64,000 nt of DNA from Nitrospina sp. GTDB lineage: Bacteria; Nitrospinota; Nitrospinia; Nitrospinales; VA-1. The notes beneath the pieces were generated by a model. That model was given only the letters and a program-made list of their open reading frames with translations. It was not told where the DNA came from and did no database searches. Positions 12,287-31,729 of the stretch are shown one piece after another. The position numbers and the translations under genes are program-made. How positions within the stretch are numbered: the stretch's first letter is position 1; each line of letters starts with the position of its first letter. The stretch spans positions 1 through 64,000 of the forward strand of contig JABIAY010000075.1 of assembly GCA_018653085.1 (NCBI GenBank), given 5' to 3'.

Positions 12287-13366
12287 CTAACTTGAAATTT
12301 CTTTCAGCACCATTGAAAGCTTCTCAATAAAAACTTTCATCTGCTCAACAGAACCTAAACCAACCCTTATATAGGGCTCAAGGCACAGTTCCTTAAACCC
12401 TCCTTTTATCATAATTTTTTCTCTGAACAACAGTTTAACTATTTCTTCTGCTCTTTTTCTACTACTAACATTAATCAATACGAAGTTGGCGTGACTCTCC
12501 TCCATATGAAGCCCTAGCTCAGGTATTTTTTTTTCAAGATAATGTTTTCCTGCAGATATCTGCCCTAAGTAATCATCTAAAATTTCAGGGTGGTATAATA
12601 GGTAACAACCAAAACTAACGGCAAATGAATTAACTTCGTACATTGGCCTTACCTTAAACAAATCACTAATTATTTGTTTGGAACTGGCAAGGTATCCTAG
12701 GCGAGCGGATGCCAGGCCCAAAGCCTTAGAAAATGTCCTGGAAACCACTAAGTTGTCGTAGTCACTTAAAAAATCCAGCATAGTTTGTCCGTAAAATTGC
12801 TGGTATGCCTCATCTATCAGAACCAATGCACCATATTTTCTTGCAGCCTCGATAATTTTATTTAAATCCTGTTGCGAAAAAACTGTCCCTGTAGGACTAT
12901 TTGGGTTGGGAATACAAACTAATCTTGTCGCTGAAGTAATCTTGTTGATAATTTTTTCTGGCGAAATAATAAAGCCCTTGCCATACACGCATTCTTCTAG
13001 CCGGGCCTGGAACATCTGCACGTAAACATAGTACATGGCATAGGTGGGGCTGATCAAAATCACTTCATCGCCTGGTTCCACATAGGCCTCAAACACACTT
13101 TTAATTGCCGCATCGGAGCCGGAAGAAAGATATATTTGGCCCAGATCTAATGCCAATGTTTCAGCTAATTTCGCGTAAAGAGGTTTTACATCAGGGTAGG
13201 AACTAACCAAATCAGGGGTAATCAAACTGCATAAATCTTGCAATACTTCTCCAGAAAAACCAATCACATTTTCATTTCTATCTAAAGAAAGATAGCTTGA
13301 ACGGTTGAAGCTTGCATTAGCAACCCGGTGGAGATCTGCAATATGTTTTTTTTGTTTGATGGGCAT
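12287..13366 (-). CDS. Aminotransferase class I/II, histidinol-phosphate aminotransferase-like
   Basis: LDRNEN, YLSSGSDAAIKSVFEAY, PNPNSPTGTVFS, LIDEAYQQF, RTFSKALGLASARLGY PLP-lysine motif. Confidence 0.9.
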   Translation of the reverse strand: MPIKQKKHIADLHRVANASFNRSSYLSLDRNENVIGFSGEVLQDLCSLITPDLVSSYPDVKPLYAKLAETLALDLGQIYLSSGSDAAIKSVFEAYVEPGDEVILISPTYAMYYVYVQMFQARLEECVYGKGFIISPEKIINKITSATRLVCIPNPNSPTGTVFSQQDLNKIIEAARKYGALVLIDEAYQQFYGQTMLDFLSDYDNLVVSRTFSKALGLASARLGYLASSKQIISDLFKVRPMYEVNSFAVSFGCYLLYHPEILDDYLGQISAGKHYLEKKIPELGLHMEESHANFVLINVSSRKRAEEIVKLLFREKIMIKGGFKELCLEPYIRVGLGSVEQMKVFIEKLSMVLKEISS

Positions 13367-13944
13367 TGTGAAAGAATTTAAAGACTAAACTAAATGCCTT
13401 ATTTAGGTGACACTATTCTTGTTGTTATAAGGGGTCTTTGATTCTGAAAATTCGTTTTTTTGTAACTAGTATTCTACTTGAGGAATTCGCCTGCATATTT
13501 TATTATCATTTTTATGAGAACCGTCTTCCGTAGAGAAGATTCCGATATCTACGCCGAGCGTGAACCATGGCACCTTCGTAGCTGAACGTTGAGGAGGCTA
13601 CCATGAGACAAGCTTATCACATTATGGATAGAGGCGCAGGAAGAGATGCCGAGCTATCGGGCTACGATGGCCAGTTACAGTGGGAAGGTCCAGATCCAGC
13701 GTGGGCCGATGGCAGGACAAAAAGATGGTTTTACATTGGACGGCCTCGGAATTTTACATAAGTCCGGCTTCCATAAATGTATGAATCTGGTGTCTTTGTT
13801 TTTGAGTGAATTGGGTGTAAGCTCTTACCGTGGCCCTTTGATTTGCCGATTTAGGAAAAGTGTTGAGTTTTTCACAGCTTGCCTCTTGGTCAATCACCAA
13901 AATTGCACTTACAAATTAACTTCAAGCCAAACTAAACAAATAAG

Positions 13945-14886
13945 ATGAATGCCACAAAAAAGGTCGCCGTTTGCTCCCGTTCTTTTTCACAAAATTCTAT
14001 TCTGCGCTCCGAATTGTTGGCAACGTATCAACATGTCACCTTCAATGATGCAGGCCTTCAATTAAAGGGCGACAGCCTGGTCGAGTTCCTAATGGGGCAT
14101 GACAAGGCAATAATCGCTCTTGAGGCAATGGATGAGTCAGTACTCTCCCGTCTGCCCAAGCTTCAGGTCATCAGCAAATATGGCGTTGGAATGGACAGAA
14201 TAGACATAGTGGCCATGCGTACTTATGGTAAGCGCCTAGGATGGACGGGCGGAGTTAACCGCCGCTCTGTATCCGAATTGGTGATTTCGTTCTCCATAGC
14301 TCTGCTACGCCATGTGCCTGCGGCTCATCGCGAAGTCCTTTCAGGATCCTGGAACCAGAAATTGGGCAGCTATTTGACAAGAAAGACTGTTGGCATAATT
14401 GGTTGTGGTCATATTGGCAAAGATTTGGTCTCCCTGTTGCAGGCTTTCGATTGCCCAATTTTGGTGAACGATATTCTGGATTTCCCCGATTTCTATGCGG
14501 CCCACGGGATCGAGGCGGTCAATCTGGAGGAGCTCTTAAAGCGATCCGACGTTGTTACCCTGCACGTACCTCTAGACGAAAGCACTCGTGGGATGCTTGA
14601 TAGCCAAAGGCTGGCACTGTTGAAGCCAAGCGCTGTTTTGGTCAATGCTGCCCGCGGAGGTTTGGTTGATGAAGTGGCATTGAAACGGATGTTGCAGGAC
14701 AAACGTTTGGCTGCCGCTGCCTTCGATGTATTCGCTGAAGAGCCACCTCGGGATCAAGAACTGCTGGCGCTACCTAACTTTCTTGCCACCCCACATATTG
14801 GTGGCAGTGCCCACGAGGCAATTTTGGCCATGGGGAGGGCAGCAATTGATGGCTTGGATAATAATAAAATTCCAGATATATTTTAG
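13945..14886 (+). CDS. D-isomer-specific 2-hydroxyacid dehydrogenase (phosphoglycerate dehydrogenase-like)
   Basis: VISKYGVGMDRID, TVGIIGCGHIGKDL, NAARGGLVDEVAL, FDVFAEEPP, PHIGGSAHEA. Confidence 0.92.
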   Translation: MNATKKVAVCSRSFSQNSILRSELLATYQHVTFNDAGLQLKGDSLVEFLMGHDKAIIALEAMDESVLSRLPKLQVISKYGVGMDRIDIVAMRTYGKRLGWTGGVNRRSVSELVISFSIALLRHVPAAHREVLSGSWNQKLGSYLTRKTVGIIGCGHIGKDLVSLLQAFDCPILVNDILDFPDFYAAHGIEAVNLEELLKRSDVVTLHVPLDESTRGMLDSQRLALLKPSAVLVNAARGGLVDEVALKRMLQDKRLAAAAFDVFAEEPPRDQELLALPNFLATPHIGGSAHEAILAMGRAAIDGLDNNKIPDIF

Positions 14887-15003
14887 GAAAACTTTCGATG
14901 GACAGATGTCTTGGCATTTTGTGCGATTAATTCTTTGAATCCATTATACGATGATTTATAGTGCCCTGTTTAGCAAGATGAAAAAATTAAAAGAGATGGA
15001 AAG

Positions 15004-15774
15004 ATGAAAGCGATAGGAATTATTCCTGCTCGTCTTGGGGCGACCCGCTATCCCAATAAGCCTATGGCTCTCATTCATGGTATGCCCATGGTGGGGCATT
15101 GTTATCACCGTACCCGCCTGACTCCAGGGATTGAAGCTACCTATGTAGCAACCTGTGACGAAGAAGTTGCTGATTATGTGCGTAGCATAGGCGGTTTGGT
15201 CGCTATGACCTCAACCAGCCATACCCGGGCTACGACGCGTACTGCTGAAGCGATGGAGCATATCGAGGTGGAAACCGGCGAGCGAGCCGATGTGGTGGTA
15301 ATGGTGCAAGGAGATGAACCTCTGATATCGATTGAGGCAATCGCAGAGACCCTTAAACACTTTGGCGATCCCGCTGTTGAAATCGTAAACATCATGTCAC
15401 GCCTTAGCACCTATGAGCAGTTTGTCGATAAAAATAATATAAAAGTGGTTGTAAATCATTGTAACGATGCTCTCTATTTCTCCCGCGAACCCATCCCTTC
15501 CTCTTGGCAAGGCCTGGAAGGTTTACCGATGTATATGCAGACCGGCATCATTGCTTTTCGCCGCAACGCTCTATTGCACTTCAACAATATGGATGAGACC
15601 CGGCTGGAGCAAATTGAATCCGTGGACATGAACCGGGTTCTAGAAACGGGTGGTCGAATTCGTATGGTCCTGACTGAAGCCGTCACCATTGGTGTCGATA
15701 CCCCTCAGGAACTCAAAGATGCTGAGAAACTGATGAATAACGACCCAACTCTAGCCCAATATCTGGTCCGATGA
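15004..15774 (+). CDS. KdsB-like CMP-sugar-acid cytidylyltransferase
   Basis: IIPARLGATRYPNKPM, VMVQGDEPLIS, ALYFSREPIP, GVDTPQELKDAE; diverged TSHTRATTRTAEA where KdsB has a DHxSGTER-type segment. Confidence 0.85.
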   Translation: MKAIGIIPARLGATRYPNKPMALIHGMPMVGHCYHRTRLTPGIEATYVATCDEEVADYVRSIGGLVAMTSTSHTRATTRTAEAMEHIEVETGERADVVVMVQGDEPLISIEAIAETLKHFGDPAVEIVNIMSRLSTYEQFVDKNNIKVVVNHCNDALYFSREPIPSSWQGLEGLPMYMQTGIIAFRRNALLHFNNMDETRLEQIESVDMNRVLETGGRIRMVLTEAVTIGVDTPQELKDAEKLMNNDPTLAQYLVR

Positions 15775-15879
15775 AAAAACATGGAATCCGGCCAACGGCA
15801 CCACTGAATCGATACTCCTGCTGAGTACTGAAGATGCAGAAAACTGCTTTGTCAATGGAACGTGTTTAGGGATTGACTC

Positions 15880-16917
15880 ATGACGAAATTAAAAGTAGGC
15901 ATAGCTGGATTTGGAATAGTAGGAAAACGCCGTAAGGACTGTATTGATCGTCATTCCAATTTACGTTTGGTTGCGGTATGCGACAAGACACTTGACGGAG
16001 AAGGCACATTCGCCGATGGTATTCGCTATTATAACAATTATCGGCGCTTGTTAACGGAAGATATGGACATCTTGGTCGTCTGCATGACCAACGATATTGC
16101 TGCGGAAGTGACGATTGCCGGCTTGGAGGTAGGTCTGCATGTTTTTTGCGAAAAACCACCAGGTCGCAATGTCGAAGACGTGGTAAAAGTCATCGCCGAA
16201 GAACGTCAGCATCCCAACCTTAAGCTTAAGTACGGTTTTAATCATCGCTACCATGAATCTGTTCAGGAGGCTCTCAGGATTTTAGACTCGGGAGAGCTTG
16301 GCAGTGTCATCAATATGCGTGGCGTATATGGAAAAGCAAAGCTTATTTCCTTCAACCAACCGGTCTGGCGCACCAAACGAGAGATTGCTGGCGGAGGAGT
16401 TTTGCTGGATCAAGGTATACACATGGTGGATCTCATGCTATTGTTTGGGGGTGTTTTCACCGAAGTGCACAGCTTTATCGCCAATAGCTACTGGGGACAT
16501 GATGTTGAAGACAACGCTTATGCTCTGATGCGAACACCGGGCGGTGTAATCGGGATGCTCAATTCCTCAGCAACGCAATGGCGGCATCGCTTTAATCTAG
16601 ATATCAACTTAGAGCGGGGTAGCCTTATTCTAGGCGGTATACTTTCTGAAACCAAGAGCTATGGTGCCGAGACTTTGACCGTAGTACGAGCCGATCCCGA
16701 CAACGATCGCGGTGACCCCATGGAACAGTTAACTCGTTACAACCAGGATCGATCATGGGATGAAGAAATCGCCGATTTTATCAAATGTATCCTGAATGAT
16801 AAACCCGTTCAAAACGGCAACTCTAAAGAGGCCTTGTGCACTATGCGGCTCGTTTTTAAAATCTACTATGCAGACCCCGCCTGGCGCAAAAGCTATGGGA
16901 TCCCAAACCCTGATTAA
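15880..16917 (+). CDS. Gfo/Idh/MocA-family oxidoreductase
   Basis: KVGIAGFGIVGKRRKDCI Rossmann motif; VFCEKPPGRNVED; GGGVLLDQGIHMVDLMLLFGG. Confidence 0.93.
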   Translation: MTKLKVGIAGFGIVGKRRKDCIDRHSNLRLVAVCDKTLDGEGTFADGIRYYNNYRRLLTEDMDILVVCMTNDIAAEVTIAGLEVGLHVFCEKPPGRNVEDVVKVIAEERQHPNLKLKYGFNHRYHESVQEALRILDSGELGSVINMRGVYGKAKLISFNQPVWRTKREIAGGGVLLDQGIHMVDLMLLFGGVFTEVHSFIANSYWGHDVEDNAYALMRTPGGVIGMLNSSATQWRHRFNLDINLERGSLILGGILSETKSYGAETLTVVRADPDNDRGDPMEQLTRYNQDRSWDEEIADFIKCILNDKPVQNGNSKEALCTMRLVFKIYYADPAWRKSYGIPNPD

Positions 16918-17075
16918 TTTTGTTCTAGACAATGCCCGTATCCATAACCATTTTATTGGTTCTGTCTTGTCGATTGGATAAAATAAGAGCACCCAAGACT
17001 CCAATTTGTCCTAGGACAAGAACCCGAATCAAACCTGATTTTCCGTTTAAAATTTGCTAGGAGGAGGATTTTGGC

Positions 17076-17840
17076 ATGCTTGAAGTCAATGAACTTCTGG
17101 AGTTGGCTAAATCCATTTCGACCAGGGCGGGCCTACGACTACTAAACAGCCTGGACCAGGGAAAAAAGGAGTATGTTTGTAGCAGTGAGCATCCAAAGGA
17201 GATCAAGGCGTTAGCCGATACTGTGTTGGAGAAGGACATTCTGCAAGCTCTTATCCCCAAAGGCCTTCCAATTTTGAGCGAAGAGTCTGGTTTTATCTCA
17301 GGGGAGCGAGAATCCAAATATTGGTTTATTGTTGATCCGCTCGATGGGACTTTCAATTTCGTTAAAGGACTGGGCCCATCCGCTATCTCCATCGCTCTCT
17401 GGCAAGATCAAAAGCCGATATTTGGTGTGATTTATAGTCTGACGGAGCGGCAACTCTTTTGGGGTGGAGTTGGCATTGGCGCCTACTGTGATGGCCAGAA
17501 AATACTGGTTTCTGATACCTTGAGTAAGGCGGAGGCATCTATTTGCACAGGATTTCCTGTGAGGTTCGAAAGCAAAAGTGATCTCGCCATACAAAAATTT
17601 TTGCGCATGGTCAGACAGTATTCCAAGGTTCGAATGCTTGGTTCCGCAGCAATTTCTCTCATAAATATTGCAAAGGGGGCTGCTGATGTGTATTCAGAAC
17701 AAAATATTATGATCTGGGATGTTGCGGCGGGTCTTGCAATTGTTGGAGGAGCCGGAGGGTCTGTCCATTTTAATCCGGGGACCATCGAACATTCATTAGA
17801 TGTCTACGCGAGCAATCGACACCTTTTTGAACCTAATTAA
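17076..17840 (+). CDS. Inositol monophosphatase-family sugar phosphatase
   Basis: LSEESG, FIVDPLDGTFNFVKG, GSAAISLINIAKGAADVY, IWDVAAGLAIVGGAGG. Confidence 0.92.
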   Translation: MLEVNELLELAKSISTRAGLRLLNSLDQGKKEYVCSSEHPKEIKALADTVLEKDILQALIPKGLPILSEESGFISGERESKYWFIVDPLDGTFNFVKGLGPSAISIALWQDQKPIFGVIYSLTERQLFWGGVGIGAYCDGQKILVSDTLSKAEASICTGFPVRFESKSDLAIQKFLRMVRQYSKVRMLGSAAISLINIAKGAADVYSEQNIMIWDVAAGLAIVGGAGGSVHFNPGTIEHSLDVYASNRHLFEPN

Positions 17841-18121
17841 ACCAAAAAGTTAGAATGCTTCCTAACCACCTGTTCTGGTTATAACCTTTTTTATAAGCAG
17901 GTGATCAAGGGAATTCCAAACTCTATTTCCAGCATGAGTGAAAATCTGCACCGACCAAAGAACTCCTTCGATCTCTCAATAAAAAAAGTTAACAGTACTG
18001 TCGAAATTGAAGCCCCCAGTGAGGGCCCAGTCATGCGCTACCTAGAAAACGATATGGAAAGATACCAGAGGCATAGCGATATCGATATCTGAACTAGTCC
18101 CTATGATCAGAACCTCGCGTG

Positions 18122-19048
18122 TCATTTCGGCCCAGCTTGATTAGAGGAATCTTTTAACTCGGCCCAGGCCTCGGCATGTTTCCTACCCATCAATGAACCA
18201 TCTACATCACAGACATTGCAGGGTTTGAAATTTCGATCTGCATCGTTCAAACGGTGCCGTATTGTCATCAACAACTTTGAAAACCATATCTCTATGAAGT
18301 CCTGCTTGTACAGGTTGCCGACGACCATTTTCTTACCCCAATCGTGGGTACAGAGCAGAACATCTCCAAGATAATCCATGACGAAACTGTAACCTGGATA
18401 AAAACAGGGCTTGGCTAGAGGTTCAACCAGAGAAGGACGCTTGAATTCCGCGTTATCCATCATTCCCGCCCGATTGGTCAGGGTGATTCCAAAATCCTGT
18501 TCCTGAGGAAGGTAGCGGTTCCGGATGACAAACTGATCGTCCTGGAGGCCAACGCTACGACACATATTTTCGAAACGGTCCGCATCCTCCTTGCCGTCAT
18601 AAACGCTAATCGACAGGGTTGAGAGACCACTGGTAAAGAGGCGGCCCAGCCTTTCTTCGTTAAGCACATCACCGTTGGTGACAATCTCGATCCGGGCCGT
18701 TGGAAGTTGATTTCTGAAAAGGGCTACATGCTCATATAATTTTTTATCTAGCAATGGTTCTACAAAACCCGAAAATATGACCAAACCAGAAAATTCGACC
18801 GCAGCCAGTTGGGTGCTTAGTTTCTCCGTCAAACCCAGAGGCATGAACTCCTCAACGTCAGGATAAGTGGGATCGCTGCGAGGGCAGAAAACACAGGTTC
18901 GGTTGCAGGTTCCAGAGGTACTCAGCTCCACTATGGAAGGAAGAGGCAGGCGGCGGTTTTCCAAGGCGAAACCACTGTCGACAATCGCCGACTTCCGCAA
19001 AATACCAGGATCAAAGAACTTGGGTGATGAAGTGTTTTGTTCATTCAT
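18122..19048 (-). CDS. Radical SAM/SPASM protein
   Basis: STSGTCNRTCVFCPRSDP CxxxCxxC; C-terminal CTHDWGKKMVVGN..FKPCNVCDVDG SPASM-like cysteines. Confidence 0.9.
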   Translation of the reverse strand: MNEQNTSSPKFFDPGILRKSAIVDSGFALENRRLPLPSIVELSTSGTCNRTCVFCPRSDPTYPDVEEFMPLGLTEKLSTQLAAVEFSGLVIFSGFVEPLLDKKLYEHVALFRNQLPTARIEIVTNGDVLNEERLGRLFTSGLSTLSISVYDGKEDADRFENMCRSVGLQDDQFVIRNRYLPQEQDFGITLTNRAGMMDNAEFKRPSLVEPLAKPCFYPGYSFVMDYLGDVLLCTHDWGKKMVVGNLYKQDFIEIWFSKLLMTIRHRLNDADRNFKPCNVCDVDGSLMGRKHAEAWAELKDSSNQAGPK

Positions 19049-19207
19049 TGTTCTTTAAAAATCTACTTATGTTTCCATGACCGAGCCAAATGAAAATGCC
19101 TTCATGAAAGGAGGCCTTTGCATTTGCAAATTAGATGCAAGTCGACAAGTTTGACCAAGAAAGGAAGGCTTTTAATAAAGTTTTTTATTCGTTTTTAGAA
19201 TGACTAC

Positions 19208-19975
19208 TTATTGATCAATTTTTTTATCCCTCACCTCTATTCCTTCCAGGCAGGATATGTCAAGCATTCTAATATCCACACTATAAGCCAAAAATAGAAA
19301 TCCATCCTTAACCAAAGAATCAAGTTTTTTTGGGTCCGCTTCGACCACATGGAGACCGCCAGGTTTATTGGCGGTCAACCCGGCATGCTTTATTTTTTTT
19401 ATCGCAGTAAGGACATCAGGGTGATCCAAGTCACCGGGAACTCCCATAGAAGCTGAAAGATCGTAGGGGCCAATGAGATATCCATCTACTTTTTCAGATG
19501 ATAAAATAGAATCAATATTATTTACGGCATCAATATTTTCAATTTGTGCAATGAGAACAGCGTTTTCCCCCAGCCAGTTTTTATACTCTTGAAATCTGGC
19601 ACCATAACCCTGAGCTCGCGCCAACCCCACACCCCTAGTTCCAGTAGGTGGATAATGAATAGCGGAAAATGCTTTATTAATATCTTCAAGCGACCGAACC
19701 ATAGGAAGGATTATTCCAACCGAACCCGCATCCATCACTCGTTTAATCTGGACCGGATCATTCGAGGAAAGCCTTACCAAAGGTGTATTACCGCATAAAT
19801 CAATGACCCGGATTAACTCTTCCGCCTCCTGAATATTAATCATACTGTGTTCTAAATCTATGGTTACCCAATCGAATCCTCTTCGGCTCATAATCTCTGC
19901 GATAGCAGGATGAGCTAAAGTTATCCACGATCCAACGGTAAGCATATTATTTTTTAATTTAGACTTTAGTTGCAT
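19208..19975 (-). CDS. HpcH/HpaI-family aldolase (upstream ATG at 20065 also possible)
   Basis: GSWITLAHPAIAEIMSRRGFDWVTIDLEHS, VRLSSNDPVQIKRVMDAG, GIILPMV, IAQIEN, GPYDLSASMG. Confidence 0.9.
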   Translation of the reverse strand: MQLKSKLKNNMLTVGSWITLAHPAIAEIMSRRGFDWVTIDLEHSMINIQEAEELIRVIDLCGNTPLVRLSSNDPVQIKRVMDAGSVGIILPMVRSLEDINKAFSAIHYPPTGTRGVGLARAQGYGARFQEYKNWLGENAVLIAQIENIDAVNNIDSILSSEKVDGYLIGPYDLSASMGVPGDLDHPDVLTAIKKIKHAGLTANKPGGLHVVEADPKKLDSLVKDGFLFLAYSVDIRMLDISCLEGIEVRDKKIDQ

Positions 19976-20281
19976 TTTACGGTGGGATAGTTTTTGAGAG
20001 GAGAATCCTAATTTGAAACCACATAAAGTTTTACTATTTTTTATTCGAAAAACACTTGCGAACAATATCAGACCCTGCTACCGCTAATCGAAAAACTCGT
20101 CCAAGCTATCTACCCGAACTAAATTCGCAAACTACTACCGGGGGCAAAGTTATCCTTTGAAGAATAGCCCATAAGATGCATGGAAAACAAGGGTTTTTCT
20201 GGGCCTTTGATTGCTGGTTTTTCATAAAAACGTCTCATCGGTTGACGTAGATGCCGATTTTAAAATGAAGGTTAAAAAAAA

Positions 20282-20291
20282 GGGGGGGGGG
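20282..20291. repeat. Homopolymer G10 immediately after an A-run
   Basis: Read directly: ..aaaaaaaaggggggggggcta.. Confidence 0.9.
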
Positions 20292-20489
20292 CTAAAGTTC
20301 TCCATGAGCGCGGATTTGCATATCGAGAAAAACGACTTGCAGAAATGTCTGACCTTGGCAGGCTTAAAAATACTTACAGCGAAATATGGGTAAAGCAGTA
20401 GTATTTTGTAAGCGAGGATTTTCCTTTCTCCAGATAGGTGTGCCCGCAAAAAACGGGAGGGGACACCAGAAACCCGTCTGTATTAAATA

Positions 20490-22670
20490 CTATGAAATAA
20501 AAATCCCTTCTCTACGCTTTATCATTTCAATCAGCATATCGCCTATTTCTTTTTGCATCATCCAGTCAGGCGGGCTTTCATTCTTGCCGAGAAAGTCTCT
20601 AATCAGCGTCCCGCTGACCGGGTGAATGCAGGAGGGCGGGTGCTCACAGGATAATCTCATCGCTTCGCATTTATCACAGTAAGCGGCCTCATCAAAAAAA
20701 ATTGGTTTAACTCCTATATCTCCAACCTCCTCAAAAAAACGAATGTTTGCTTCCTTCGGGTAAAAACCATTGACCCCTGTATGGTCTCTTCCCACAATAA
20801 AATGCGAGCACCCATAATTTTTTCTGCATATTGCCGTAAAGACGGCCTCTCTAGGCCCCGCATACCTTGAGAAAGAAAAGAATGCCCCTATCAACACCCG
20901 GTTCTTTGGATATAGATTAAGTTCGATCATACGCTGATATGCCATCAAAACCGGTTCATTTTTAAAGTCGTTTTTCCTTTTAGGGCCCACCACAGGGCTG
21001 ATAAATAATCCATCACAGAAATATTCATCCAGAGCCTTTTGCTGGATATATTCATGCGCCGCATGAACAATATTACGCGTATGAAAACCGGCTACTCGAT
21101 ACCAGTTTTTTTGCTCAAATATCATCCGTGTATTTTGGGGCGTAAAAATAAATGGCGCGACCTCCTGGGATTTACTGGAAAACCTGACCAAGTCAACCTT
21201 TCCTCCCAACAACGTATCTCCTGAATGCTTTAACTGTTTTACACCAGGATGCTCCGGGGAATTTGTTCCAAACATTCGCTTGGTCATAGATTCAAACTGC
21301 ATGGGAAATATTTCTTCAAGATGTAGCAAAGCAAATATTTCCCCAGAGTGAGCATTCTTTAAAGCAACAGAATCACCCTTTTGGAGTTTTCTAATCGAAT
21401 CGCCCCAGACCGGAAGAATAATAGGCAACGTCCAAATTGTACCTTCTGGAAGTAAATTATTATTTAATACACCTTCCACCTGCTCTTTAGTCATGAAGCC
21501 TTGCAAAGGGGAATAAACTCCCGTAGCAATCTGTTCGCAATCCGAAACTATTTTCTCATCTACTTCGAGAGTGGGCAGTTTAGACAGCTCTTTAATGTCA
21601 GGTTTTGTTTCGACTCTGGATACCAGCGAGCCACCATGGGCTTCGATCAACAATGATCTTTTTTCATACTTGGAAATATCTGTATCAAATTTATTAAAAT
21701 AATTGAACTGGTCCATTAATTTTGAAATCATATTGACACAACCTACAGGGTTGCTACCTATTGCCGTTTCCGCAGCCAAAACCAGGCCATCAGCCCCATC
21801 AAGCAGAGTATTGAAAATATCGTTCACTTCAGCCCGGGTAGGATTTGTTTGAGTCACCATAGATTCAAGGAGGTTGGTTGCCACATACACCTTTGTCTTG
21901 GTGCTTTTGGCTTTATCAATTATATGCTTTTGAAGAAGGGGGATGGATTCAATAGGCTCTTCACGGGACAAATCTCCCCGGTCTATTAGAACAGCATCTG
22001 ACGCATTGGCAATAGCCTCCAAATTTCTAATTCCTTCACGGCTTTCTATCTTGGAAATAATAAAGCTGCTCTTTGGCGTATGGTTCCGGATTGCCTGAAC
22101 ATCTTCCAGGTGATTGGCAAAAGAAAGTGCGAAATGCCTAATTCCAAATTCGATAGCAATCTTTATCGATTCTTCGTCTTTCCTAGTCAGGGGATTCATT
22201 CGTATCCGCCTATTTACCGAGACAGCTTTATTGCTTCCAATGGATCCTTCGGTGATAACCTTCGCCATCAAATGATCAGATTTTTTTTCAACCACCTGGA
22301 TCAACGCCGTATTAAAATCTATGGAAATCAGATCATAAATTTGAATAAGGTCTATTGATTCTTCAGGATAAAAACTTATATGCCTTGAATTACCGGCAAC
22401 CGATTGTCGGTCTATTTTTATCAATTCGCCTTCTTTAAGACATGCAGTACCGTTATACATTTTTCCGGTCCGGATTTGAGCACCCTCGGAATCTATACAT
22501 ATGGGAATTGAAGTGATTTCTTTTACGTACTGAATATGCTTCGGCAGGTCTTCGATCGAGGTATGAGACAAGTTGATCCGCAACAGAGAAACGGGGAGTT
22601 CATTCAATCGTTCCAAAACAGACTTTTTAAGGGAAGCCGGCCCAATTGTACAGAGAATTTCTTTGCTCAT
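20490..22670 (-). CDS. Fusion protein: pyruvate-kinase catalytic region (N-term) plus ATP sulfurylase / sulfate adenylyltransferase (C-term)
   Basis: N-term: CTIGPAS, RINLSHTS, IRTG, FIISKIESREG, IDRGDLS, VATNLLESM, PTRAEVNDI, AAETAIG. C-term: SPLQGFMTKEQ, GFHTRNIVHAAHEY, GRDHTGVNGFY, HPVSGTLIRDFL. One uninterrupted 726-aa ORF. Confidence 0.9.
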   Translation of the reverse strand: MSKEILCTIGPASLKKSVLERLNELPVSLLRINLSHTSIEDLPKHIQYVKEITSIPICIDSEGAQIRTGKMYNGTACLKEGELIKIDRQSVAGNSRHISFYPEESIDLIQIYDLISIDFNTALIQVVEKKSDHLMAKVITEGSIGSNKAVSVNRRIRMNPLTRKDEESIKIAIEFGIRHFALSFANHLEDVQAIRNHTPKSSFIISKIESREGIRNLEAIANASDAVLIDRGDLSREEPIESIPLLQKHIIDKAKSTKTKVYVATNLLESMVTQTNPTRAEVNDIFNTLLDGADGLVLAAETAIGSNPVGCVNMISKLMDQFNYFNKFDTDISKYEKRSLLIEAHGGSLVSRVETKPDIKELSKLPTLEVDEKIVSDCEQIATGVYSPLQGFMTKEQVEGVLNNNLLPEGTIWTLPIILPVWGDSIRKLQKGDSVALKNAHSGEIFALLHLEEIFPMQFESMTKRMFGTNSPEHPGVKQLKHSGDTLLGGKVDLVRFSSKSQEVAPFIFTPQNTRMIFEQKNWYRVAGFHTRNIVHAAHEYIQQKALDEYFCDGLFISPVVGPKRKNDFKNEPVLMAYQRMIELNLYPKNRVLIGAFFSFSRYAGPREAVFTAICRKNYGCSHFIVGRDHTGVNGFYPKEANIRFFEEVGDIGVKPIFFDEAAYCDKCEAMRLSCEHPPSCIHPVSGTLIRDFLGKNESPPDWMMQKEIGDMLIEMIKRREGIFIS

Positions 22671-22785
22671 AATTTTATATCTTTAAATACGTCCATGCCA
22701 TAAGGGCTATAGTATAAATGGCTCCGATAATTTCTGACAAAAATAAAGTATTAGCCATTCTGAGCAGGCCAGACATAAAAATTAG

Positions 22786-23694
22786 TCAAAGGCACCAATC
22801 CATATTTTTCTCATAGCCAAGACGGATTAGTTGATCCCCAGCACGCCTTTTTACAACCTGGACATCATGTTCGGAGAAATGAGTGCGCCAATCTCCCTTC
22901 CGGCCAGCTCTAAAATTCGCACCTCTTCCCACCTTGACTCTATCCGCCAAAGTATCCACCCCACCCCGAGTCTGCGCATCTGCAGCAACCATCATTTCTT
23001 GAATTTGATTGTCTGGAAAATCAATACCATAGAACAATAGAATTTTTTTGAACGCCTCGAAGGAATTATCCAGAAGATCTTCATAACGGATAACTAGAAA
23101 CCGGTCCGGCTCTTTCTCAACTACAGCCAACCAGTCGTCAATCCAGGCAACATACTGGTCAAGGGCGTAATCGATCGAGTGGCTGAACGCCTCACTCTGG
23201 GGCATTTCATTATAAAGTTTGTGATGAATAGTATTTGGATCCACTAAAATGTGGTGGAACCGACTGACGAGTTGGTCGCGAATATCTCGGTACGTAACCA
23301 AAGTCAACAAATTCATTTTTTGGATAATCGTCAGAAGCTCCGAAGATGCCCCCGCATGAGTCTTAAGGGCATAAAATCCAAATCTGGGGATATTGGTGAA
23401 GTAGGATTCATCCCAAACCCGGCCTGCGGCGATACCGCTCCTGTCAACAATTGGAGGCCTTTGAAAGCCGGGAATATTTAATAAAAAGGCATGAACCCAC
23501 GACGACCCTGATTTCGCCATCCCGGCTATAAAGAGAATACGGTGCGGATACTTATGATTCAAAGCATCTTTAACACCCAAGATCCCAACGCGAAAACAGT
23601 CCAGGCAACGAATCCATTCATACCGACGATACAATCCAACAAGAATCTTTCTTGCCAATGTAATAGGTTTCCAAGTCAACGATGTACTCATCAA
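22786..23694 (-). CDS. Sulfotransferase domain protein
   Basis: ILFIAGMAKSGSSWVHAFLL (PAPS 5'-phosphosulfate loop), TYRDIRDQLVSRFHH, RYEDLL, FRAGRKGDWRTHFSEHD. Confidence 0.9.
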   Translation of the reverse strand: MMSTSLTWKPITLARKILVGLYRRYEWIRCLDCFRVGILGVKDALNHKYPHRILFIAGMAKSGSSWVHAFLLNIPGFQRPPIVDRSGIAAGRVWDESYFTNIPRFGFYALKTHAGASSELLTIIQKMNLLTLVTYRDIRDQLVSRFHHILVDPNTIHHKLYNEMPQSEAFSHSIDYALDQYVAWIDDWLAVVEKEPDRFLVIRYEDLLDNSFEAFKKILLFYGIDFPDNQIQEMMVAADAQTRGGVDTLADRVKVGRGANFRAGRKGDWRTHFSEHDVQVVKRRAGDQLIRLGYEKNMDWCL

Positions 23695-23874
23695 AATCCA
23701 TTTCTCAAATGCTCAGTAATAATCACAGGTATTTATATTCATTGTTAAAATATTTTCGCATATTTTCACTCAACCACAATATCTCAAGCGCCTTCAAACT
23801 TCTGAACACCTCGGTTTCAAACCAGACACCAATTATTTAATTCGAGAGGAAAGTATCAGGTTTTACCGTTAAAC

Positions 23875-24426
23875 TCAATTCCTTCCTCTCGAAATATAAT
23901 CGAGTTCTTCCAGCTTATTAATCACCACTTCTAAACATTCTTCAAGATTTTGCTTGTGAGTTTTGACTTCAATATCTGGATTTAACGGTTCTTCATATGG
24001 ATCGTTTACACCTGTAAAATATTTAATTTTATCCTCTCTGGCTTTTTTATACATGCCTTTTACATCTCGGTCCTCGCAAGTTTCAACCGGACATTTAACA
24101 TAAACTTCGATTAAATCCTCAAACAAAGTTTTTATTTCTTCACGGGTTTTTCTATAAGCGGAAACAATCGCCACCATAACAGCCTGACCTGTCTTCGCAA
24201 TTTCGATAGCTTGTTTTGCAGCTCGAAGATTGTTGGCATGGCGATCTTCAATTGAAAATCCGAGATCCTTTGAAAATTTACTCCGAAACTCATCACCATC
24301 CAAAACTTTTACCGGAAAATCCGCACAAACAGAAAGTTCCTCTTCAATCGCCTTGGCCAATGTGGATTTTCCCGAACAGGGCAACCCAGTAAGCCAAAGA
24401 ACAAACGGTTTATTAAGTTGGTACAT
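23875..24426 (-). CDS. cysC: Adenylylsulfate (APS) kinase
   Basis: LWLTGLPCSGKSTLAKAI P-loop, VLDGDEFR, DLGFSIEDRHANNLR, VAIVSAYRKTREEI, KYFTGVNDPYEEP. Confidence 0.94.
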   Translation of the reverse strand: MYQLNKPFVLWLTGLPCSGKSTLAKAIEEELSVCADFPVKVLDGDEFRSKFSKDLGFSIEDRHANNLRAAKQAIEIAKTGQAVMVAIVSAYRKTREEIKTLFEDLIEVYVKCPVETCEDRDVKGMYKKAREDKIKYFTGVNDPYEEPLNPDIEVKTHKQNLEECLEVVINKLEELDYISRGRN

Positions 24427-24446
24427 GATTTTAGCCTGTCAAAAGT

Positions 24447-25970
24447 CTATGATTTTTTTAGGAACTGCAGGGTTTGAAAAAATTGTGTTTTTATTTCATT
24501 CCGTGTCAAACCTGCCACCCACGGAACAGACCAGAGGGAAATTCCTACGACAAGAGCATAAATTAATAGTGCCATACTACCTTTAAAAAATAAGTTCATG
24601 GCAACCATCGAACCAAGGAAATTTGCGCCCTCAAATGAAAGCTGGCCCAACACCAGCACCCCGGCCAACGCCAGAACCTGATATACCCAATCGAACTTCC
24701 AACCATAATGGCGCGCAATCCACCAGAGGACTAGGTTAGAGCTAACCACACAAAGGATAACCATTTTCAATGCCATTCCCAGGGAACCCAATTCCAAACC
24801 TGGCAATTTGGCATCAACCGGTGCCTGGATAAAGTATGACACAGGAATAGCAACTATTATTACCAAACCTTCCAGGACTACCTTAGGTCGCGTTTTCCCT
24901 ACTGCCAACAGGAAGGACCCGCCGATAAGCCCCAGGGATTGGTAGATCGGATATAGAAACATAACCGAAAGCGCCGGGACACTTCCCAAATAAGAAGACC
25001 CCAAAAATAGTCTTACGATTTCCTCGCTCCAGGGAATTAAAAAACCGCTGACCAAGGTTGCCGCCATATACAAAAAACGACAAACCTTCTGGTGCAATTT
25101 ACACATCCGCTCAAGATCATTATTTTCATGGGCCTCAGCAATCTCTTTCCAATAAATCCTGAGCAGGGAGGTGGTAGCCAAAAGACTCACCACTGCCAAT
25201 TGATAGCCTATTCCATAAAACCCTTGTTCTTCACTGCCACCAAATGCCTGCAGAAACCATCGATCAGCAAATAGAGAGCCAAACCCCAACCATGAATAAA
25301 GAATAAGCGGAGCGCAGAAGTTAAAATATTCATTCCACACTTTTTTACCATCAAACTCTTCATCTTTCAGCCTATTACCGCAAAGGACATGAAAAGCCAC
25401 GCATGTGGCTATCAGATACTCAATAAAAATCAAGCCAAATAGAACGTACAGGGAGAGATGCTGGGTCCAAAAAAGAACCACTACCAGAAGAAAATGCGTC
25501 ACAACGATGGAAAGATTGAAAATTTGAACTTTGTGGGTTAATCGAAATGACTCTCCAATGTTGCTCATGGTGACCCAAGCATTGTCCTTCATGAAGACAG
25601 CCACAAACGCAAGCAGAATCATCCCTTTTTCCTGGCCGATCCAAATTTGATAGATCCATTGCTCAGGGAATAACAATCCAATGAATATAAGGGGCAGGAG
25701 AAATTGCAACCCCTGCCATATAAAATAACTTGCGACAAACTTTCTCCCGCGAGGCTTTCGACACATAATTGTGTAAAAAGCATGGGTTGACCCCATATCT
25801 AGAAACACTTTAATACCAACAAAAGTCCCTAAAAGAAAAACAAAATCGCCATAGCTTTGCGGCCCCAGGCCTCTCCCGATCAACAAACCCGTGACAAGCG
25901 ACAAGAGGCCCCGAAGGGCATTTGAAAAAAATGAAATGGCAAAACGAGATCTTACAGAAAATTTTAGCAA
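24447..25970 (-). CDS. Polysaccharide-type flippase / oligosaccharide exporter (MATE/Wzx-like)
   Basis: Multi-TM; SLVTGLLIGRGLGPQSYGDFVFLLGTFVGIKVFLDMGS, typical Wzx-like N-terminus. Confidence 0.85.
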   Translation of the reverse strand: MLKFSVRSRFAISFFSNALRGLLSLVTGLLIGRGLGPQSYGDFVFLLGTFVGIKVFLDMGSTHAFYTIMCRKPRGRKFVASYFIWQGLQFLLPLIFIGLLFPEQWIYQIWIGQEKGMILLAFVAVFMKDNAWVTMSNIGESFRLTHKVQIFNLSIVVTHFLLVVVLFWTQHLSLYVLFGLIFIEYLIATCVAFHVLCGNRLKDEEFDGKKVWNEYFNFCAPLILYSWLGFGSLFADRWFLQAFGGSEEQGFYGIGYQLAVVSLLATTSLLRIYWKEIAEAHENNDLERMCKLHQKVCRFLYMAATLVSGFLIPWSEEIVRLFLGSSYLGSVPALSVMFLYPIYQSLGLIGGSFLLAVGKTRPKVVLEGLVIIVAIPVSYFIQAPVDAKLPGLELGSLGMALKMVILCVVSSNLVLWWIARHYGWKFDWVYQVLALAGVLVLGQLSFEGANFLGSMVAMNLFFKGSMALLIYALVVGISLWSVPWVAGLTRNEIKTQFFQTLQFLKKS

Positions 25971-26227
25971 GCGACTTTAGACCTCAAGCGTTTGACAAGT
26001 TTCTTTAGGCAAGGATATTCAAAAATGATTGAACCATTCTCTCTCTGATATCAATACAGAAATTTCCAAGCATGCTTAACTTGGTTGTTGGCAGTGGGCT
26101 GGCGGGAATATCTCTAATAGGTAGCAAAGCCTCCAAATTAACTCACTTTTGAATTCCACCCGGATGAAATACTTTTCAAGCCAACTAATAATTCAAAACA
26201 TCAAAGGTGTCACTGATACTTAGCACC

Positions 26228-28207
26228 TCACCTGCCCTTCCTCAATTTGACCATGGAAGGGTTATCGGTAGAAATACCAGAAAGGAAATTCTTGTTTATG
26301 ACCTTTCTCAACGAAATATATTTAGCCATAGGCCTACCCTTTGCCAGGGAAAACAAGTTAGATATTTTCCAGACCAAATACTCTAGCAAAATATTAACGC
26401 CGTATTTAACACCATGTTTTCTAATTACGTTCACCCAAACAAGAACAACTGAAAGGAACCTGAGTCTCCAAAAAAAACGAGGATAATAAATTGGAATGTA
26501 ACGAAGCATGTCTTTACGAAAAAACAACAAAAACAGGGATATCTGGTTAATTATAGCACTGGGTTCATTTTTTTCATGGCCCTCCATACCTGCATCCTGG
26601 CCTTTGACCAGGCCACTCTGGTAATTACTTTCACCTTTCATCACTTCAATTTGTTCCATTGCTCTTTGAGGATAGGCAAAATAACCGCTATCCCTTTTTA
26701 CAGCACTCCCTTGTAATTTTCTTAGAACTGGCAGACCATGTGCCTCGCCTACAACATTTTGATAGCTTCGAACTCCCCATTTTTCGATAAACGCATTTCG
26801 GGTTCTGTTTTGTATATCAAAATACCATTTTTCCAGGAGAAGCCTGGGGTAACCAGTGAAATTAATATAGCTCTCTCCATCTCTGGCATCGCGGTCGGAT
26901 ATTTGCAGTAAATATTTTTCTTCGTCCTCAATGGATGGCCCTATTAACCCCTTTCTCCGAGCATACTCATATAATGGAGTGCCAGGAAGGGCTTGTGCAA
27001 AGTTTAGACCCAACTTGTTTGGGTCAGTATATTCAGAGTTTTGCGCATAAAAACTGGCAAACGCCATAGTTTCCTCAATAGTTTCTTGAGACTCACCTGG
27101 CATTCCCAAAACAAGTTGCAAACAAGTATGAATTCCATTGGCAGGCAACCATTTCACGACATTTTTATTTTGCTCAACGGTCGTCACCTTCCCCATAACA
27201 TCCAGCATTTTTTGACTGCCACTTTCCATCCCAAAATACATGGAAGAACAACCTGCACCCTTCATCTTCTTTGTCCACTCCAGAGAAATAGTAGACACTC
27301 TCATTCCACTCACCCGCCAAACCAAATCTCGTTTCTTAATCTCGTCTAGAAATTCTGCGAGCCATTTATGATCAGAGCCAAAATTTTCATCTCCAAAATC
27401 TATAAAACCCACGTTGTATTTAGCAATAAAAAAATCGATCCGCTCCATCAAAGTTGGAACCGGAATATAACGAATACCCGGGTCCCAGCGATGGCAAAAC
27501 GTGCATTTGGCCACACACCCTTTGCTCGCAACCATTGTGGCGATGGACTTACCTTTTTTTTGAGGTTTGTCAGATCGCGAATCTTTCGAAAAGCTAATAC
27601 CATACAGGGGGGAGCTTTCTTTTGGACGGATGAAAAATTCCATCTGGTTAAGGTCTTCCAGAATGGACCAATCAATATTATAGACCTGATGAACTTCCAC
27701 TGGTTCAGCATAGGGGGTTACAATCAGATTTCCATCATCGCTTAAAAAAGCCAAGCCATTAACATTTTCGAAGTCGGCTTTAACTTTTGTTCTTAACCAG
27801 CAATTGACAAAACCAACCATTGTTTTTTCGCCTTCACCGGTGCAAACAAAATCTATACCAGTTTTATGGAGCAGGACTTCGGCTGATGCCCCCAGGTTTC
27901 CCCCCATGATAATAGTAATATCGGGAAGGCTCTTTTTTAAGTCTAAAGAAAGTTTTTTAGTGTACCCGTATGCGGTCGAAACCACTGCACTGATGGCAAG
28001 AATATCCGGATTTTCATCCTTTATATGCGCAATAACCTGATCATACTCAGGGCGAAGCAAATCAATATTATAAAAGTGGGTATTTTCATAACCCTCTCTT
28101 TTAAGAGCACTGATTATTGACAAGCTACCAATTGGAGGGAACGAGTCCGGTTCCGGCCTGATCGGAGTTGTCACAAATAAAATTTTTGGGTTTACATGGT
28201 CTCGCAT
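26228..28207 (-). CDS. B12-binding domain radical SAM protein
   Basis: FVTTPIRPEPDSFPPIGSLSIISALKREGY; MVASKGCVAKCTFCHRW CxxxCxxC; FGMESGSQKMLDVMGK. Confidence 0.92.
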   Translation of the reverse strand: MRDHVNPKILFVTTPIRPEPDSFPPIGSLSIISALKREGYENTHFYNIDLLRPEYDQVIAHIKDENPDILAISAVVSTAYGYTKKLSLDLKKSLPDITIIMGGNLGASAEVLLHKTGIDFVCTGEGEKTMVGFVNCWLRTKVKADFENVNGLAFLSDDGNLIVTPYAEPVEVHQVYNIDWSILEDLNQMEFFIRPKESSPLYGISFSKDSRSDKPQKKGKSIATMVASKGCVAKCTFCHRWDPGIRYIPVPTLMERIDFFIAKYNVGFIDFGDENFGSDHKWLAEFLDEIKKRDLVWRVSGMRVSTISLEWTKKMKGAGCSSMYFGMESGSQKMLDVMGKVTTVEQNKNVVKWLPANGIHTCLQLVLGMPGESQETIEETMAFASFYAQNSEYTDPNKLGLNFAQALPGTPLYEYARRKGLIGPSIEDEEKYLLQISDRDARDGESYINFTGYPRLLLEKWYFDIQNRTRNAFIEKWGVRSYQNVVGEAHGLPVLRKLQGSAVKRDSGYFAYPQRAMEQIEVMKGESNYQSGLVKGQDAGMEGHEKNEPSAIINQISLFLLFFRKDMLRYIPIYYPRFFWRLRFLSVVLVWVNVIRKHGVKYGVNILLEYLVWKISNLFSLAKGRPMAKYISLRKVINKNFLSGISTDNPSMVKLRKGR

Positions 28208-28607
28208 TTAATTCCCACTAAAAATCAATTCAAAAATCTGAATCAAACCCTCAAACCTCTTTCGTTGCCAAAAATCTTTCCAAAATACTCAATATTTGGA
28301 GGCACTAATTTCAAATAGTTTTAAACCTGACCATTACCCTCCGGCCTGTCTTTTTAATCAGGCAGACTCATTTTCTTATGTTAGCGTAACTTATAAATTC
28401 TGATTAACAATAAAATTGCGAGTGGCGTAGGGACTCGAATTAAACAAATAAAGGTGAAAGCTCAAACAATTAACATGCCGGGCATTTTCCAATTACCTTA
28501 AACACAATTTAAGTTGCGGGCTCGGTCCCAAGAAGAAAGAATTCTTATAAGATTCTCAACTTCAACCCAGTCTTATCAGGATTTAACGGAGGTGTCTACC
28601 ATAAGGT

Positions 28608-30359
28608 TTAGGCTTTGCTGGCTTTTAATATTTCTCCCTTCCACTCGCCAATCCATTTCTCGCTGGTATGAGCAAATTGGCGACAGAACTTATTTTTTGC
28701 TTCCTGAACTTCGGGAGACATCCACCACGACAGAGGATCCTGATAAATTTCATTCACCTTAGCGGCGGCAGATTCGGGACTTTCATGGAAAATGCCAGAT
28801 CGTCGTAAATCATCAAAATAAGGTTGAGCCAAAGATCGCAATTCATTTTGCTCAGGATCCCAGAAAAGAAGCGTGGGATAATTTGCTGCAAAGGTTTCCA
28901 GGTAAGTCGTAGAATTATAGGTTGATATACACAATCGGCTTCGATTGAGGTCAAAGAACATAGGTTTTTTTCCTCGATAAACTTTTAGCGAAGGGAACAC
29001 ATCCGCTAATCTCTTTACCTCATTCCAGCCCAAATCAATAGGATTGCACCTCATCGATAACAGTCTGCGGGCTTCTGGAGAAATTGCGGCAACAAATCGC
29101 TCCTGTTCTTTAAGATAATCAGGCATTCTGGGAACAGTCATCATCATATAAGAATATCGAGTACGGGACAATCCTAACCAAAGAATTCCGCCCTTCGGAT
29201 CAACGCGTATTTTTTTCTTTATGCCTGCCAATTTTCCAGATGATAGTGGAATGGCCTTTGGTTGATCTTCTGGCTTCCACCCCCATGAAAAATATTTATC
29301 AAAAATATGAAATTCGTGTCTCTCCAGCCACGACCAGCGATGCATTCCATATCCCCCTCCATATTGACTGCCTATTATCTTGACCCCCCTTTCAGCCTGA
29401 CTGGCTGACCAGAATTTAAACCCTTCATTGGCCGGCCCAAAGGTGCTTAGAATAATTTTTGGGTTTCCTGGAAATGCTTTTAGTGATTTTTCAAGGATTT
29501 CGGCAAACGATTCCAAATAACCGGTAGGAAATTGCGTGGGAAGGAGTTTTCCCAACAAAACTTCAAACTGATTTTTTCCGGCAGTTAACTTCAACTTTTC
29601 GCGCAACCCCCAGTTCACAGGGCTCTCATGAACATCAACTTTGGGACCAAGAAGCCAGGGAATTTGGCCAACGGAGAGTTGCAATTTTGCCAAGTCCCAC
29701 GGGTTCAAGTAACTGGAAACAATAACGACACGATTCCAGCAACTTGGAAGCCGCCGGGAATACCACCCAAGCAACTTTTTTGCGGTACTTTTTATATAAT
29801 CTGCTTGATATGAAAACGCTTCTTCATCAAATAAATTATGGAGATTCGGTATATTTTTTATCTCATAAGGGATGGTCCCCATTGATTTTACTAATCTGCT
29901 TAACAAGCGATGATTCCAGACATCCCCAGTAGCCAGTTTTCGGCAGTGGAGATAGTCTCTTGGCACAATATCACCAGCCCCGTCAGGCGCAATCCAGGTG
30001 TTAGTAACCAGCCCCGATTCTTCAACAGATTTCAGCAAAATAAATTTTTCATAAAGATCACCTATAAAGAAACTCAACCAGGGACCCACCAAAGTGCGCC
30101 AGAATCTCAACGAATGATTTTTGGAATGGGCTTCATTTAGAGCCGCCGTCAGAGAGGACAAAGAACGTTCATACACTTCATCTAAATACCTGTAGTCCTT
30201 ATACATTCTAGCCCGATCAACCCAAGGATGAGTTGTCATCTCAAAATCCAGTTTAGACCAAATATGTCTTTTCTCATAAGCCGTGCACCATTCCCCGAGA
30301 AAACAAATTTTTTCTTCTGCTTTCCAAAACCTTTGATCTGAAGTTGTAGCCAAAAACAT
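28608..30359 (-). CDS. LIC12162-family putative transferase
   Basis: MFLATTSDQRFWKAEEKICFLGEWCTAYEKRHIW N-terminus; GGYGMHRWSWLERHEFHIFDKYFSWGW; RLCISTYNSTTYLETFAANYPTLLFW. Confidence 0.75.
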   Translation of the reverse strand: MFLATTSDQRFWKAEEKICFLGEWCTAYEKRHIWSKLDFEMTTHPWVDRARMYKDYRYLDEVYERSLSSLTAALNEAHSKNHSLRFWRTLVGPWLSFFIGDLYEKFILLKSVEESGLVTNTWIAPDGAGDIVPRDYLHCRKLATGDVWNHRLLSRLVKSMGTIPYEIKNIPNLHNLFDEEAFSYQADYIKSTAKKLLGWYSRRLPSCWNRVVIVSSYLNPWDLAKLQLSVGQIPWLLGPKVDVHESPVNWGLREKLKLTAGKNQFEVLLGKLLPTQFPTGYLESFAEILEKSLKAFPGNPKIILSTFGPANEGFKFWSASQAERGVKIIGSQYGGGYGMHRWSWLERHEFHIFDKYFSWGWKPEDQPKAIPLSSGKLAGIKKKIRVDPKGGILWLGLSRTRYSYMMMTVPRMPDYLKEQERFVAAISPEARRLLSMRCNPIDLGWNEVKRLADVFPSLKVYRGKKPMFFDLNRSRLCISTYNSTTYLETFAANYPTLLFWDPEQNELRSLAQPYFDDLRRSGIFHESPESAAAKVNEIYQDPLSWWMSPEVQEAKNKFCRQFAHTSEKWIGEWKGEILKASKA

Positions 30360-30463
30360 AATAATATATTGAGGTTAAAGGGATTTTGTTCCGGAATACG
30401 CCACTAACTTAATAAAATTCAGCTGCAGGGGAGGGGTAATTACAGAAATAAAAGATCAGAAAA

Positions 30464-31675: not shown

Positions 31676-31729
31676 TTCTCAATCATCTGGGGAAAGCGGT
31701 TGTTATTTTGAATTAAATTATGAAAGGCC

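Follow-up and report, generated by a model that had tools for sequence, protein, structure and literature searches.

What might be the use of joining, in one polypeptide, a pyruvate kinase (PK)-type barrel to an ATP sulfurylase? The question is raised by a single uninterrupted 726-aa frame, beginning with ATG, in the ORF listing of a 64,000-nucleotide stretch of Nitrospina sp. DNA (the window). The frame and its parts are these, with the source of each assignment in brackets:

20490..22670, minus strand: PK-barrel/ATP-sulfurylase fusion ORF, 726 aa (ORF, Pfam, NCBIfam, PDB, AlphaFold2, Foldseek)
21738..22661, minus strand: PK-type barrel with B domain, residues 4-311 (Pfam PF00224, E 3.7e-61)
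21657..21695, minus strand: linker of low model confidence, residues 326-338 (AlphaFold2)
21186..21647, minus strand: PUA-like sulfurylase N-domain (PUA_2, PF14306), residues 342-495 (Pfam, E 1.2e-42)
20526..21149, minus strand: ATP-sulfurylase catalytic domain PF01747, residues 508-715 (Pfam, E 3.8e-65)

The original prediction, made from the sequence, was that one frame carries PK signatures followed by sulfurylase signatures, with the usual C-terminal domain of PK absent. Both parts stand: the 726-aa ORF contains all of the motifs quoted in that prediction, the NCBIfam and PDB sequence searches agree with Pfam on the domain order, and Pfam finds no match to the PK C-terminal domain anywhere in the fusion. 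The sulfurylase half is complete (residues 342-715 by Pfam) and its catalytic domain keeps all of the RN-HxxH, GRDH and SGTxxR motifs, with scores that fall below two NCBIfam cut-offs (372.8 against 387 for PRK04149, and 292.5 against 322.95 for sopT). An AlphaFold2 model built from 16 fusion sequences, with two plasmid-record rows left out, has two confident parts (mean pLDDT 87.8, pTM 0.81); Foldseek matches it to the M. thermolithotrophicus ATP sulfurylase (TM 0.93 of the target) and to pyruvate kinases as well, the best structural match of the sulfurylase half being 8a8d.

Because the window genome is a draft, an assembly error or a missed stop at the join has to be considered, and one relative (G056, locus L026) does have the two halves in overlapping frames, with a degenerate sulfurylase site. 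We reject this explanation as next to impossible, since independent assemblies share the join and dN/dS is low on both sides of it. A second copy of the fusion in a related genome (G008) is 91% identical and its frame is open; comparison of the two Nitrospina copies gives dN/dS values of 0.095 over the PK region and 0.152 over the sulfurylase region, and both halves are under purifying selection. The same fusion was recovered by a genome-collection scan and a plasmid search at no fewer than 16 other loci in many phyla: Elusimicrobia, Mesorhizobium, Methylococcaceae, Omnitrophota, Nitratireductor, two other Alphaproteobacteria, two Parcubacteria, Salsipaludibacter, Staskawiczbacteria, Pirellulales, Chloroflexi, Lacipirellula, Ensifer and Sinorhizobium. 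The Lacipirellula fusion sits on a complete chromosome, the fusion is also present on two complete rhizobial replicons, and Mesorhizobium, Nitratireductor, Ensifer and Sinorhizobium each have it as an uninterrupted frame. The frameshift, misassembly or stop in relatives that might have undone the prediction was therefore not found.

Two further observations concern these relatives. G008 carries 19.5 kb of the window region (12420-31920) at 99.995% identity and, in addition, a second operon copy, with 81-84% DNA identity across the genes that align; the window-like region and the diverged operon are on contigs C45 and C47, and either the bin may mix two strains or a single genome may have both operons. 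In the same genus, a contig edge (G012:C299:15-668, L030) holds a His-type sulfurylase fragment with an in-frame TGA, which is possibly a decayed relative of the fusion.

The PK-type barrel belongs to a family of its own. A branch of 1.96 changes per site separates the family barrels from glycolytic PKs in the tree, with support of 100/100, and among the matches listed about half of the barrels are free proteins, mostly of 311-376 aa. Counts for the family rest on the genome-collection matches listed and are minimum values; two near-threshold matches (G037 and G111), whose frames of 492 and 474 aa have the length of a PK, were left out. The family is rare and patchy, being scattered among bacteria, archaea and phages, with carriers that range over Nitrospina, rhizobia, Planctomycetes, candidate-phylum bacteria, Thermoplasmata, SAR11 and phages. 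It is present in four of the 77 genomes of the window's phylum (G000, G008, G036 and G056) and one of the 141 other sampled genomes of the Mesorhizobium class, and was found in none of the 148 other sampled genomes of the Lacipirellula phylum. Phage records gave partial PK matches only, and viral contigs scanned with the full fusion yielded no match. At another contig edge (L143:1-2418, G100:C38) we note a trio of a second kind, made up of a divergent sulfurylase (317 aa), a divergent PK (438 aa, keeping IDRGDLS) and the start of a CysC-like gene.

Although scored as pyruvate kinase by Pfam, the family barrels are probably not glycolytic. A glycolytic role is rejected for the window genome and for most carriers, where a separate PK is present: the window genome has one of 479 aa, and most of the 33 carrier genomes have more than one PF00224 match. 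The window genome also has a CysD-CysN pair (named from sequence and gene pairing), which makes an assimilatory role for the fused sulfurylase unlikely there, and no PF01747 protein other than the fusion was found in it. With a separate PK and CysDN at hand, the fusion appears as an extra, dedicated module. In most fusion genomes it is the only PF01747 protein, and in the Chloroflexi genome G089, where it is the only PF01747 match, an assimilatory role is possible. Replacement of APS kinase by the barrel is unlikely, as 32 of 33 carrier genomes have a PF01583 match, weak in some. Neither PF01747 nor a convincing CysD was found in five SAR11 single cells and two alphaproteobacterial MAGs that carry the barrel, which is weak evidence because these genomes are partial; the barrel is the sole PK match in four of five SAR11 cells that were checked.

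The active-site residues of the barrel are of two kinds, and the following descriptions use PKM numbering (rabbit numbering plus one) except for the K+-site signature, which is in rabbit numbering. As the original prediction implied, the phosphoryl-transfer set is intact: in the alignment of the matches listed, R73, N75, S77, H78, D113, R120, K270, E272, R294, G295, D296 and T328 are kept in 41/41 family members. The PEP pocket differs. A293 is replaced by Asp and Q329 by Asn in all 41 members, as against Ala and Gln in 46/46 glycolytic PKs, and there are further changes of G298 to Ser (40/41), of position 118 to Gln (40/41), of 117 to Ala (37/41) and of 115 to Glu (39/41). Since A293, G298, E118 and Q329 are among the PEP-site contacts of PKM2 in a docking study (PMC11207066), these four changed positions would lie on the substrate side, and because pocket positions differ in every family member, PEP as the substrate is an assumption. 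The signature of the PK K+ site is either T113/K114/E117/T120 or L113/Q114/K117 (PMC8835810), and the barrels, with Ser/Thr113, Glu114 and Gln117, conform to neither; the mismatch is compatible with activity, because residues other than the usual ones at 117, Gln included, are present in a Crenarchaeota PK branch.

The sulfurylase half has a comparable substitution. In the A. vinosum ATP sulfurylase, for which the roles of the motifs have been described, Gln199 hydrogen-bonds the sulfate of APS (PMC3779200). In our alignment, His takes the place of this residue of the QxRNxxHxxH motif in all fused forms (18/18), the unfused ones having Gln (14/14), and the fused sulfurylases form one clade in the tree with support of 97/95. 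The substituted residues of the window protein are:

21981..21983, minus strand: Asp230, in the place of PK Ala293 (PKM); Asp in 41/41 family members
21873..21875, minus strand: Asn266, in the place of PK Gln329 (PKM); Asn in 41/41 family members
21081..21083, minus strand: His530, in the place of the sulfate-binding Gln199 of the A. vinosum sulfurylase; His in 18/18 fused forms

The genes next to the fusion in the window point to sulfation. The order is flippase, CysC, sulfotransferase and fusion, all on the minus strand:

24447..25970, minus strand: polysaccharide flippase-like protein (PF01943, just under the Pfam cut-off)
23875..24426, minus strand: APS kinase CysC, 183 aa (apsK equivalog, 188.6 against a cut-off of 138.7 bits)
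22786..23694, minus strand: sulfotransferase (PF00685), upstream neighbour of the fusion (Pfam)

The APS kinase domain is thus not in the fusion protein, CysC being a separate gene; its product keeps the APS-binding motifs DR..N and FTGV, and both it and the sulfotransferase score as ordinary family members. The region also has NeuB, cytidylyltransferase, aminotransferase and radical-SAM genes, a content of the sort that a surface-glycan cluster would be expected to have. Just downstream of the fusion (19208-20065) there is a gene for an HpcH/HpaI-type aldolase, of a family that acts on pyruvate-type substrates. It was considered as a pyruvate-using partner and set aside: in the second copy of the operon another gene occupies that position, on a contig that ends soon after.

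The association with such genes extends across the family. A CysC-like, sulfurylase, sulfotransferase or mini-nucleotidyltransferase gene lies within 8 kb at 38/43 family loci as compared with 0/46 glycolytic PK loci, a count that is inflated by the fused sulfurylase domain; CysC-like genes are found at 26 of the 43, sulfurylases at 20 (mostly the fused domain itself), sulfotransferases at 18 and mini-nucleotidyltransferases at 4. For free barrels alone, and within 4 kb, the comparison is 14/22 against 0/46 (p 3e-9, a value that overstates independence as the loci are partly related). The CysC-like gene is often 0-25 nt from the barrel gene, and a genome found afterwards (G211) conforms to this, its barrel being directly followed by a CysC-like gene. 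Unfused barrels beside CysC-like genes show that the pairing goes beyond the fusion. The barrel, whether fused or free, very probably belongs to a sulfation-type donor module.

Not all of these neighbours are like those in the window. Outside Nitrospina the CysC-like proteins mostly lack the APS-kinase motifs, and several score below the apsK cut-off; at L027, L048, L050-L052, L056, L058, L059, L063, L153 and others, for example, FTGI is replaced by LIGY or similar. As judged from these motifs, the loss suggests that these kinases act on something other than APS, or bind it in another way. At L042 the fusion is followed by a PAPS-reductase-type gene. Two viral contigs combine a PK barrel with a mini HxGH nucleotidyltransferase (111-123 aa), one with a sulfotransferase (L119:3842-5865) and the other with a CysC-like kinase (L130:5538-8984), and in SAR11 single cells L068 (1615-1974) and L070 the same mini-nucleotidyltransferase has a CysC-like kinase as its neighbour, some 6 kb away from the PK barrel. 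A cation/proton-antiporter-like gene is near the barrel or fusion in six loci (L041, L044, L066, L073, L120 and L121).

The reading that we put forward, tentatively and with a slightly greater chance of being wrong than right, is that the fusion is the donor-synthesis enzyme of a surface-glycan sulfation module, its PK half remaking ATP from PEP and the ADP of CysC. The sulfurylase half would adenylylate sulfate (ATP + sulfate -> APS + PPi), the neighbouring CysC would convert APS to PAPS with release of ADP, the adjoining sulfotransferase would spend PAPS on a glycan, and the PK-type half would, most likely, move phosphate from PEP to the CysC-derived ADP, replenishing locally the ATP that both activation steps consume; what we infer here is that either half is catalytic, that PEP and ADP are substrates and that the target is a glycan. 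The invariant phosphoryl-transfer residues, the purifying selection, the tie to sulfation genes and the presence of a separate PK and CysDN argue for this reading, as does the closeness (often 0-25 nt) of CysC-like genes, the expected ADP producers, to the barrel; sulfurylase and APS kinase coupled to PK and PEP do work in vitro, as an assay (PMC10322725). Against it are the changed PEP pocket, the His in place of the sulfate-binding Gln, the many CysC-like neighbours elsewhere without APS-kinase motifs (though the window's CysC keeps them) and some barrel genomes, partial ones, that show no known sulfurylase, and it is not easy to see why phages, or cells that also have a glycolytic PK, should need to recycle ATP locally. 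The original prediction that ATP regenerated from PEP could drive APS formation is plausible, with CysC (23875-24426) in the operon as the step that would supply ADP, but the sulfurylase product is PPi rather than ADP, so that PK can neither recycle it nor directly pull APS formation, and the use of PEP is assumed.

The altered residues might instead reflect an on-pathway kinase with a substrate other than PEP or pyruvate, using another donor or a small-molecule acceptor, which we regard as a lesser though real possibility. The donor could be, for example, PPi from the barrel's own sulfurylase half (PPi + ADP -> ATP + Pi), although PPi use is not known for a PK fold; alternatively the barrel would phosphorylate a small molecule, to be adenylylated by the nucleotidyltransferase and 3'-phosphorylated by the CysC-like kinase, and the product would be a PAPS-like donor that carries another group. 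The uniform change of the PEP-pocket positions in 41/41 members (pocket list of PMC11207066), the His of the 18/18 fused sulfurylases, the CysC-like neighbours without APS-kinase motifs outside Nitrospina, and the persistence of the barrel where a mini HxGH nucleotidyltransferase replaces the sulfurylase (SAR11 and phages) all agree with such a kinase; the ordinary appearance of the window's CysC and sulfotransferase does not, and the PAPS-reductase-type gene at L042 points to APS/PAPS. In its fuller form, this would be the kinase of an unrecognised PAPS-like donor route, from PPi or another donor or on a small-molecule substrate, that acts with a CysC-like 3'-kinase and a nucleotidyltransferase, the latter being either a sulfurylase whose sulfate site is altered or, in SAR11 and phages, a mini HxGH enzyme, so as to place sulfate or some other group on surface glycans, which we consider rather unlikely. 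A barrel with no catalysis of its own, regulating the sulfurylase as a PEP/ADP sensor or as a scaffold, has a precedent in fungi, where the APS-kinase domain of the sulfurylase is regulatory (PMC2275785), and would fit the changed pocket. We judge it improbable: free barrels with no attached sulfurylase are common and paired with CysC-like genes, and a pure sensor, which the original prediction had offered, is disfavoured because the phosphoryl-transfer residues are invariant (41/41).

No description of a PK-sulfurylase protein was found in the literature searched, most subscription journals being beyond its reach. The original prediction named no characterised protein with this domain order, and we have found none, but the architecture is not unique, given its recurrence at 16 or more other loci. 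With its pairing, fused or neighbouring, next to sulfation genes, the barrel looks like an undescribed part of the machinery for sulfation (or a similar modification) of cell-surface sugars. Sulfate activation is strongly uphill, and the known remedies are GTP hydrolysis by CysN, pyrophosphatase and APS kinase; a PK-type partner, if our preferred reading is true, would be a further one, or else the sign of a nucleotide donor other than PAPS. As the family barrels are probably not glycolytic, metabolic reconstructions would also be affected, for instance those of SAR11 cells with no other PK match.

Among known systems, the methyl phosphoramidate pathway of Campylobacter, with a small-molecule kinase, a nucleotidyltransferase, a CysC-like 3'-kinase and a transferase, resembles the barrel module in logic; it is CTP-based and its kinase has a different fold. 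The barrel shares with pyruvate kinase (EC 2.7.1.40; PF00224) its fold, the B domain and the full phosphoryl-transfer residue set, and departs from it in its long branch, its PEP-pocket positions, its K+-site signature and the absence of the C-terminal domain. The other half has both domains of Sat-type ATP sulfurylase (PF14306 and PF01747) and the RN-HxxH, GRDH and SGTxxR motifs, but the fused forms differ from Sat in their His for the sulfate-binding Gln, in forming their own clade and in scoring under two NCBIfam cut-offs. Sulfurylase has been described in fusions with APS kinase, inorganic pyrophosphatase and APS reductase (PMC2275785), and here too it is joined to a pathway partner; an N-terminal PK-type barrel is a partner that PMC2275785 does not mention. 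The trio of sulfurylase, APS kinase and PK is the same as in the in vitro PAPS systems and assays that use PK and PEP (PMC10322725; PMC9885120), but those were assembled by experimenters from ordinary enzymes, whereas the module described here is possibly an evolved one, with a putative use of PEP.
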